A stretch of DNA of 64,000 bases, from assembly GCA_903905455.1 (NCBI GenBank), contig CAIVGN010000189.1, positions 62,001 to 126,000 of the forward strand. Reading direction: 5' to 3'. This DNA comes from an uncultured Archangium sp. (GTDB lineage: Bacteria; Myxococcota; Myxococcia; Myxococcales; Myxococcaceae). The notes beneath the pieces were generated by a model. The model was given only the letters and a program-made list of their open reading frames with translations. It did not search any database and was not told the DNA's origin. Positions 13,941 to 16,147 of the stretch are shown piece after piece; position 1 is the first letter of the stretch; each line of letters starts with the position of its first letter. The translations under genes were made by a program, and so were the position numbers.

Positions 13941-15272
13941 GTGCTGACCGCCCTCGCCACCATGCTGCTCGCAGTCGCGCCCCCGACCGGCTTTTCCCAG
14001 TCGGTGGAGCGAATCGCGGTGCGCCGCACCTCGGGCCCCGTCTCTGTCGAGGCGGACCCGATGACGGCGCGCGTGGTGCTGCACGGGCTGGCCCTCACCG
14101 AGAAGCCGCCGCGGCTGTGCCCGGTCGTCACCCGGAAGGAAGGCGTCATCACCCTGACCTGCAACACCCGGCGGCTGTGGGCCGGCCTGCAGAGTGACCC
14201 CCGCGGCACCTACGTGGACGTGCGCCAGCTGACCGCCGTGAGCTGGCTCGATGACGCCTCGCGCGTGCCGATGCGCGCCTGGTCGCTGCGCTCCGTCTTG
14301 ATCCCCGACGTGTGCCCCGGCACCACGGCGGCCGCCCGCGGCGAGTGCGCGTTGGGCAAGGGCGACCTCGGGCGAGCCCGCGAGGCCTGGGACATGGCCC
14401 TCACCGGCCCCGACCTGGGCCTGGCGCACCTGCGCCTGGGCGACCTCGCGCTGGTCGACGGCGACGTCGAGCTCGCGCTCAAGCACTACTCGAAGGTGAC
14501 CTCGGTCGGCCCCGTCGGCCGCATGGCGCAGGCCCGGGCCTGCGAGCTCTCGTCGAGCTGCCTCAACCCAGTCGAGTCGGAGCGGGTGGCGAACTCCGAG
14601 GGCCTGGCCCTCGAGCTGGCCCGGGAGCTCACGCTGTACACCCTGCGCCGAGAGATGGCCGTGGGCCACGACCAGGCGGCCATGACGCTGCTGCTCTCGA
14701 AGCTCGAGACCGACCTGTCCTTTTGCCAGGGCGCCGTCGGCTTCTGCCAGAAGCTCATCGAGGGGGGGCTGGCCTCGACTGACGTCGAGGCGCGCCTCAC
14801 CGCCCTCTCGGCGTTCCTCACCGACAAGGTGCGCAAGGGCCCCTACGAGCTGGCCCTCAACGAGGCCGCGGCCGCCACCGCGCAGGAGATCGGCGCCCCG
14901 GGCTTCGCGGCCGCCATTCTCGCGGGCAACACGCCGAACGTGGCCCACGCGCACCTCGCCGACCACCTCCTGGAGGTCGTGCGCCTCTACCTCGCCGCCC
15001 GCGACCCGATCCGCGCGGCGGTGGTCCTCGAGTACGCCGAGGGCAAGCTCGGCGCCGCCAGCCGCAGCGGGGGCTGGGTCGCGGTGCGCCGCCAGCTCAA
15101 CCGCCGCGGCGTCGTCGCCGCCGCGCCCGCCGCACCCATCGTCGACGAGGTCGCGATGGAGCAGCTCAGCACCCAGGTCTCGCTCAGCACCGAGCTCGCA
15201 CGCGCCGCCGCGACTCACAGCCGCGCTGCCCAGAATGTCCCGTCGTCGGCCCCAGTGGAGATTGCCCCATGA
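13941..15272 (+). CDS. Exported TPR-like protein with paired cysteines, flagellar-operon hypothetical
   Basis: 443 residues, GTG start behind a gaggag ribosome-binding site. The N-terminus MLTALATMLLAVAPPTGF looks like a signal peptide. The middle has helical TPR-like repeats (RGECALGKGDLGRAREAWDM, then AHLRLGDLALVDGDVELALKHY). Cysteines come in pairs spaced about 8-11 residues or less (CPVV..LTC, DVC..GEC, ACELSSSC, FCQGAVGFC), which fits disulfides in the periplasm. It lies between two sigma-54-activator genes, 12 bp after the first and overlapping the second by 4 bp, so it belongs to the flagellar unit. I do not recognise it; an envelope role in flagellar assembly is inferred from position only. 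Confidence 0.75.
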   Translation: MLTALATMLLAVAPPTGFSQSVERIAVRRTSGPVSVEADPMTARVVLHGLALTEKPPRLCPVVTRKEGVITLTCNTRRLWAGLQSDPRGTYVDVRQLTAVSWLDDASRVPMRAWSLRSVLIPDVCPGTTAAARGECALGKGDLGRAREAWDMALTGPDLGLAHLRLGDLALVDGDVELALKHYSKVTSVGPVGRMAQARACELSSSCLNPVESERVANSEGLALELARELTLYTLRREMAVGHDQAAMTLLLSKLETDLSFCQGAVGFCQKLIEGGLASTDVEARLTALSAFLTDKVRKGPYELALNEAAAATAQEIGAPGFAAAILAGNTPNVAHAHLADHLLEVVRLYLAARDPIRAAVVLEYAEGKLGAASRSGGWVAVRRQLNRRGVVAAAPAAPIVDEVAMEQLSTQVSLSTELARAAATHSRAAQNVPSSAPVEIAP

Positions 15273-16147
15273 AAGATGAACTGATCGGCTTCAGCCCCGC
15301 GATGCGTCACGCCATCGGTGCGGCAGTCGACGTTGCGTCGGCCCCGACCACGGTGCTGCTCACGGGGGAGACGGGCAGCGGCAAGGAAGTGCTCGCCCGG
15401 TTCATTCACCAGATGTCGGCGCGGGCCTCGCTGCCGGTCAGCGTGCTCAGCGGCACCTCGCTCGACCTGGAGCAGGTCGAGACGGCGCTCAAGCACGGCG
15501 GCACGGTGGTGCTCGACGAGATCGCGGCCATCCCCATGGACACCCAGGGGCGGCTGCTCACCATGCTCGAGGGCGCGCACGCCTCGCGGGTCATCGCCAC
15601 CTCGCACCGCGACCTGCGCGAACTCGTCGAGCGCGGGCAACTCCGCTCCGACCTGTACTACCGCCTCGACGTGTACCCCATCGTGCTCCCGCCCCTGCGC
15701 GAGCGGCGCGAAGACATCGGCGCCCTGGCCGACGTGCTCCTCGCGCGCATCGCCACCAGCCTCGGGCGCGCGCCGGTCAAGCTGACGGGCGAGGCCATGG
15801 GGCTGCTCGAGTCGCAGCGCTGGCCCGGCAACGTGCGCGAGCTGGCCAACGTGCTCGAGCGCGCGTCCATTCGCGCGCGCGGCCCGATCATCGAGGCGAC
15901 GGATCTGGGCCTGGTCACCCGGCCCACGGACACCTCGTCGTTCCCGGCCTACCTGCCGCTCGACCTCGTGCAGCTCGAGCGCATCGCCATCGCCGAGGCC
16001 CTGCGCCGCACCAACGGCAACCGCACGCACGCCGCGCGGCTCCTCAACATCGGCCTGCGCACGCTCCGCCAGAAGCTCAACGCTCCATCGATTTCCTCCC
16101 AGGACGCCGTAGCCCCTCTCGAGGCGATGTCGGCGGTCGCTCCGTGA
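15269..16147 (+). CDS. Sigma-54-activator-like AAA+ regulator lacking GAFTGA
   Basis: 292 residues: an AAA+ domain from residue 1 and a C-terminal Fis-type helix-turn-helix (NGNRTHAARLLNIGLRTLRQKL region), with no sensory domain. Walker A GETGSGKE (33-40) and Walker B VVLDEI (80-85) are intact, as are DLYYRLDVYPIVLPPLRER and [15 protein letters not shown]. Between Walker A and B, however, about 21 residues are missing compared with the first activator. This removes the ESELFGH...GAFTGA segment that contacts sigma-54. It probably cannot open sigma-54 promoters and may bind ATP and DNA as a modulator or repressor. It overlaps both the upstream gene and flgB by 4 bp, so its synthesis is coupled to flagellar proteins. 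Confidence 0.85.
   Translation: MKDELIGFSPAMRHAIGAAVDVASAPTTVLLTGETGSGKEVLARFIHQMSARASLPVSVLSGTSLDLEQVETALKHGGTVVLDEIAAIPMDTQGRLLTMLEGAHASRVIATSHRDLRELVERGQLRSDLYYRLDVYPIVLPPLRERREDIGALADVLLARIATSLGRAPVKLTGEAMGLLESQRWPGNVRELANVLERASIRARGPIIEATDLGLVTRPTDTSSFPAYLPLDLVQLERIAIAEALRRTNGNRTHAARLLNIGLRTLRQKLNAPSISSQDAVAPLEAMSAVAP

Follow-up and report, generated by a model that had tools for sequence, protein, structure and literature searches.

A FlrC/FlbD-class protein without its sigma-54-contacting loops is encoded upstream of flgB in an uncultured Archangium sp. and has predicted operators at the flgF promoter

Results

The actA-actB module of the flagellar gene cluster

The stretch of DNA analysed here (64,000 nucleotides, hereafter the window) carries a flagellar gene cluster at approximately 12600-33500. 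The genes and promoter elements relevant to this study are the following.

10899-12467, minus strand: divergent sensor histidine kinase with HisKA and HATPase_c domains (Pfam PF00512, PF02518)
12620-12633, plus strand: FlrA/FleQ-type box GTCAGCCGAATGAC (motif match)
12658-12672, plus strand: predicted sigma-54 promoter P1, TGGCAAGCGGGTTGC, the best match within the 64-kb window
12732-13928, plus strand: actA, FleQ/FlrA-like sigma-54 activator with GAFTGA and without receiver domain (PDB matches, tree)
13941-15272, plus strand: TPR-like protein, module member (weak TPR_2 match; same position in nearly all flagellated relatives)
15269-16147, plus strand: actB, loopless FlrC/FlbD-class protein (ORF, domain, tree and alignment evidence)
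16144-16575, plus strand: flgB (TIGR01396, E 1.8e-22) with a GTG start, followed by flgC, fliE, fliF and fliG
28129-28143, plus strand: P2, weaker sigma-54-like promoter GGGCACATGCGTTGC upstream of fliL (motif match)

The start of actA is probably the ATG at 12732, since a TTG start at 12651 would place coding sequence over the sigma-54 promoter. The TPR-like gene, whose product has an N-terminal signal-like stretch, separates actA from actB/flgB in almost every flagellated genome of the order. The start of actB overlaps the stop of this gene and its own stop (16147) overlaps the GTG start of flgB (16144), in line with the coupling of actB to flgB described in the first-pass annotation. The tight packing of actA, the TPR gene, actB and flgB-flgC-fliE-fliF-fliG makes it probable that transcripts starting at the promoter upstream of actA include both actB and flgB. 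P1 is kept in relatives, and the box preceding it is of the same type as yGTCA-N6-TGACr, the box of an FlrA-like regulator (PMC4641369). A combined pattern of FlrA box and sigma-54 site, with a spacing limit shorter than the box-promoter spacing at flgF, has a single match in the organism's own genome, at P1. Sigma-54-like sites in the window are not enriched in number over shuffled sequence, so support for these promoters comes from where they lie and from their conservation. A weaker sigma-54 site is also found upstream of flgF, which is located on another contig.

The histidine kinase adjoins the module in the loopless genomes and occupies the same position in relatives; it is transcribed divergently from actA, though a domain search detected a receiver domain in neither ActA nor ActB. 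At the fliL site, TGACGCGTCA directly precedes the -24 element in the window genome, and the same element is present in genome G009. Both rpoN and fliA are present. Upstream of the flagellin gene of the same genome (contig L142, around 1400-1470) there is a sigma-28-like element, TTAA...GCCGAA, suggesting that late genes probably use FliA.

ActB lacks both loops that act on sigma-54

Proteins of this family, such as PspF and NtrC1, act on sigma-54 through two surface loops, L1 (GAFTGA) and L2. ActB, a protein of 292 amino acids with an ATG start, has neither. Its Walker A and Walker B motifs are separated by 42 residues, compared with 63 in ActA; the roughly 21 missing residues noted at first pass are therefore exact. 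A second gap seen in the alignment, 12 residues after Walker B corresponding to the pre-sensor-1 loop L2, had been overlooked. Walker A (GETGSGKE), Walker B (DE), the arginine fingers, sensor II, the AAA lid and the Fis-type helix-turn-helix (HTH) are all kept, confirming by alignment and domain content that the sigma-54-contacting segment is lost while the ATPase and DNA-binding parts are retained. The positions within actB are listed below.

15365-15388, plus strand: Walker A GETGSGKE, ActB residues 33-40 (alignment)
15490-15491, plus strand: junction of the 21-residue L1/GAFTGA deletion, between residues 74 and 75 (alignment)
15515-15520, plus strand: Walker B DE, residues 83-84 (alignment)
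15571-15572, plus strand: junction of the 12-residue L2/pre-sensor-1 loop deletion, between residues 101 and 102
15956-16084, plus strand: Fis-type HTH with NRTHAARLLNIGLRTLRQKLN, residues 230-272 (PF02954)

With both sigma-54-contacting loops gone, ActB would no longer open sigma-54 promoters.

ActA and ActB belong to two old clades

The two regulators had been annotated as adjacent paralogues, one competent and one not. Degeneration of one copy of a duplicated gene is not supported as their origin. The best solved-structure matches of ActA are FleQ (E 3.4e-82) and FlrA, and its C-terminus carries the QRTTLVEKL helix typical of FlrA/FleQ-like neighbours. The C-terminus of ActB, NRTHAARLL-IGLRTLRQKL, resembles that of FlrC-like proteins whose genes immediately precede flgB in many delta-proteobacteria, among others. 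In the tree, ActB and the delta FlrC-like proteins are split from ActA and the FlrA-like proteins with 99/99 support. Structure prediction and alignment of the deletion, both proposed at first pass, placed the two gaps and gave an ActB model with a mean pLDDT of 83.9 (~91 in the AAA+ part). Its AAA+ part is nearest to V. cholerae FlrC (Z 26.2, rmsd 1.9 over 214 residues), with NtrC1, FleQ and LuxO trailing by ~1-1.5 Z units; since NtrC1 and FleQ come so close behind, the fold alone does not discriminate the class. Together, the ActA matches and helix, the FlrC-like end of ActB, the tree and the model identify ActA and ActB, as judged from sequence and modeling, as a pair of the FlrA/FlrC (FleQ/FleR) type. 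Tree and HTH rule out a recent duplication of actA as the origin of ActB. Of the features of the FlrC/FlbD class, ActB has the descent, the predicted GGCA-N5-TGCC operators and the AAA+ fold but not the N-terminal receiver domain.

Competition of the two proteins for the same enhancer sites, as suggested earlier, is unlikely because both the recognition helices (QRTTLVEKL in ActA, GLRTLRQKL in ActB) and the predicted operators (GTCA-N6-TGAC and GGCA-N5-TGCC, respectively) differ.

Intact, loopless and absent ActB occur within one order

Flagellar genes, including fliF, are found in 18 of the 96 genomes of the host family, whose well-known members do not swim. Twelve of these 18 encode ActB, and the orthologues other than the window protein are ~48-75% identical to it. 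Checking the pair and the deletion in related genomes, as had been recommended, showed that the pair is conserved and that the L1 and L2 gaps are present in all 12 orthologues, so chance or assembly error is rejected as their source. An origin of the deletion in faulty assembly or annotation is thereby of negligible probability: the draft state of the assemblies, and nothing else, speaks for it, whereas the identical two gaps recur in 12 separate assemblies and the relatives refute it.

The loopless proteins form a single clade with 100/99 support. Sister families (genomes G054, G138, G141, G142, G133, G039 and G055) encode ActB with intact GAFTGA and L2 in the same locus order, actA - TPR gene - actB - flgB. 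The other flagellated relatives have no actB before flgB, and an HTH search of these genomes found no ActB orthologue elsewhere, with at most 53% identity at any match, compared with 73-82% for true orthologues in the sister families. The HTH alone served as query because a whole-protein profile could not separate ActB from the many other enhancer-binding proteins. The order thus holds intact, loopless and absent states of ActB. In two relatives without ActB, GGDEF-domain genes are located behind a sigma-54 site with a GTCA-N6-TGAC box (L174:2357 and L181:16275).

When orthologues from the same genus are compared, dN is considerably lower than dS in the AAA+ halves and the lid, and most clearly so in the HTH (for example, HTH dN 0.04-0.12 versus dS ~0.54-0.59 in group g1), indicating that AAA+ and HTH have been under purifying selection since the loops were lost. 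These ratios are rough, as dS is compressed by the extreme GC content. The same comparison revealed no constraint on the C-terminal tail. The HTH, the most constrained part of ActB, is also common to the intact proteins. Judging from its motifs, ATP hydrolysis by the window protein is possible. It appears doubtful for the relatives with further drift of Walker A and sensor I, in g5 and g2, and with DD for DE in Walker B, in G006. The actB copy of G119 (L116:4737-5621) contains an in-frame TAG, reflecting possible decay or an assembly error; the other 11 copies have an open frame.

Predicted ActB operators at flgF lie next to the -24 element

FlbD from Caulobacter binds CCCGGCAxxxxxTGCCGGG and DVU1063 from D. 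vulgaris binds GGCAxxxxTGCC (PMC3333781). We had spotted a GGCA motif upstream of flgF by eye before these motifs were known to us; the group without ActB and a control with all 256 four-letter inverted repeats with N5 spacing guard against a chance pattern. Using a cut-off of at least 7/8 matching positions (0.2 expected per 300 bp), predicted GGCA-N5-TGCC operators occur upstream of the flgF sigma-54 promoter in 12/12 loopless and 5/6 intact genomes and in none of the eight without ActB. Three of these eight also lack a sigma-54 site at flgF, leaving 0/5 for the remainder. G141 and G029 were left out of this comparison, their flgF start not having been found automatically.

The sigma-54 element at flgF is kept in all 12 loopless genomes, and the arrangement around it differs between groups. 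In the intact group the operators are 56-105 bp from the predicted -24 element. In 11 of the 12 loopless genomes, versus 0/6 intact ones, one copy is only 9-11 bp away, and the twelfth has a 6/8 match at 12 bp; further copies are mostly at 38-55 bp. In the control, GGCA occupied the proximal place in 11/12 genomes and the next best repeat in 2/12. An ActA-type box, GTCA-N6-TGAC (at least 7/8), was detected 71-82 bp upstream in 11/12 loopless genomes and, at that distance, in none of the intact ones. The exception, G006, lacks the ActA box and carries three perfect ActB sites, while the box in g5 scores 7/8; ActB sites are more numerous or better in both. As the genomes share descent, these counts are not independent events, and the promoter changes may represent one event given that the 12 loopless genomes form one clade.

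P1 and P2 have no ActB operators of note. GGCA-type matches upstream of fliC overlap, by inspection, the sigma-28-like promoter TTAA...GCCGAA and were set aside.

Discussion

A proposed DNA-bound modulator of flgF

We consider it likely, from the sequence evidence, that ActB is a DNA-bound, sigma-54-inactive modulator of flgF. The loop loss, the descent, the retained HTH, the retained and repositioned operators and the added ActA box are all read from the sequences; binding by ActB, takeover by ActA and a negative sign of the ActB effect are inferred. Ancestral ActB would have activated flgF from classical upstream sites; the flgF promoter of V. cholerae depends on FlrBC and sigma-54 (PMC7064773). 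Both loops would then have been lost once, in the ancestor of a flagellated clade of the family. The loopless protein would share an operon with ActA and early basal-body genes, transcribed from a sigma-54 promoter behind an ActA-type box, and would still bind the GGCA-N5-TGCC sites upstream of flgF. ActA would have acquired its own upstream box there and do the activating, and ActB, placed 9-11 bp from -24 and at one or two further sites, would act as a governor or gatekeeper that limits or times this activation. A protein on a site ending ~10 bp upstream of -24 would be expected to interfere with the activator ring or the polymerase as either docks. Repression by FlbD at ftr4 of fliF (PMC3930126) and the promoter-side NtrC sites of glnAp2, proposed as governor sites (PMC3870243), provide precedents for a negative sign.

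The chances appear evenly balanced that this reading holds in full, with ActA activating flgF and promoter-bound ActB limiting or timing that activation, negative sign included. More tentatively, and with slightly less than even confidence, we propose a natural rewiring of the flagellar hierarchy, in which a disarmed middle-tier activator stayed at its former promoter as a dedicated governor while the master regulator gained a box and took over. A checkpoint role for ActB, raised at first pass for hook-basal-body assembly, is plausible, its site of action more likely being the flgF sigma-54 promoter than flgB.

The main rival to the governor reading is a mixed ActA/ActB ring, in which ActB would be the DNA-targeting partner that brings sigma-54-competent ActA to flgF, with a positive effect. 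Hetero-oligomers have precedents in FleQ/FleT and HrpR/HrpS (PMC7277832, PMC11999139, PMC9542535). ActB keeps the residues of the AAA+ interface (Walker A, arginine fingers, sensor II), and both ActA and ActB lack regulatory domains, as do HrpR/HrpS and FleQ/FleT (PMC9542535). G006, with its three perfect ActB sites and no ActA box, and g5, with its 7/8 box, run against a governor, and their better ActB sites fit a recruiting role. However, flgF has its own ActA-type box in 11/12 loopless genomes, so recruitment by ActB is not needed there, and a site 9 bp from -24 is an odd position for an enhancer. We therefore hold a mixed ring to be rather unlikely.

It is improbable that ActB is a decaying remnant, retained through its position within the operon. 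The loss of gene and operators in sister lineages, the drifted Walker A, Walker B and sensor I motifs of g5/g2 and the in-frame TAG of the G119 copy are consistent with decay, but 11 copies remain open, dN stays below dS in AAA+ and HTH, and the operators are retained with fixed geometry. Still less probable is action at sigma-70-type promoters. The NtrC proteins of R. capsulatus and Caulobacter and VpsR, all without GAFTGA, work at such promoters (PMC10274813), and the proximal operator is about where class II activators would bind; yet the operators belong to a promoter that retains its sigma-54 element in all 12 loopless genomes.

Intact activator, loopless regulator and loss of the gene together with its DNA sites are all represented in living relatives. 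Preservation of every stage makes it testable how a sigma-54 activator can be disarmed while the pathway survives, and whether sigma-54 promoters are naturally under the control of mixed or blocking rings. The retained DNA-binding part and sites of the loopless regulator suggest that what was an on-switch now brakes or adjusts the same promoter. In V. cholerae, FlrC-dependent promoters have been replaced in the laboratory by an FlrA-dependent one (PMC7064773), and the rewiring of flgF in the loopless clade is an apparent natural counterpart of these swaps.

Comparison with known systems

ActB resembles FlrC (Vibrio), FlbD (Caulobacter) and DVU1063 (Desulfovibrio) in descent, place directly upstream of flgB, HTH, AAA+ fold, predicted operator GGCA-N5-TGCC and flgF as predicted target promoter. 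It differs from this class in having no receiver domain, GAFTGA (L1) or L2 and in the proximal operator that adjoins -24. Loss of GAFTGA with DNA binding kept is known from the NtrC proteins of R. capsulatus and Caulobacter and from VpsR (PMC10274813), which like ActB combine an NtrC-type AAA+ domain that has lost the sigma-54 loop with a retained HTH. Those proteins act at sigma-70 promoters, whereas the ActB operators flank a sigma-54 promoter and ActB lacks L2 as well. A search of the open-access literature turned up no description of a loopless FlrC/FlbD-class protein, and the flagellar GAFTGA-less case with relocated operators appears to be new.

FleQ and FleT of Rhodobacter (Cereibacter) sphaeroides are likewise two flagellar proteins of the enhancer-binding type, the incomplete second being encoded in an operon driven by the first. 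FleT, however, lacks the DNA-binding domain, while ActB has a conserved HTH and lacks the sigma-54 loops. Negative action by an enhancer-binding protein, as proposed for ActB, is shared with Caulobacter FlbD at ftr4 of fliF and with NtrC at the governor sites of E. coli glnAp2; unlike ActB, FlbD and NtrC are also competent activators.
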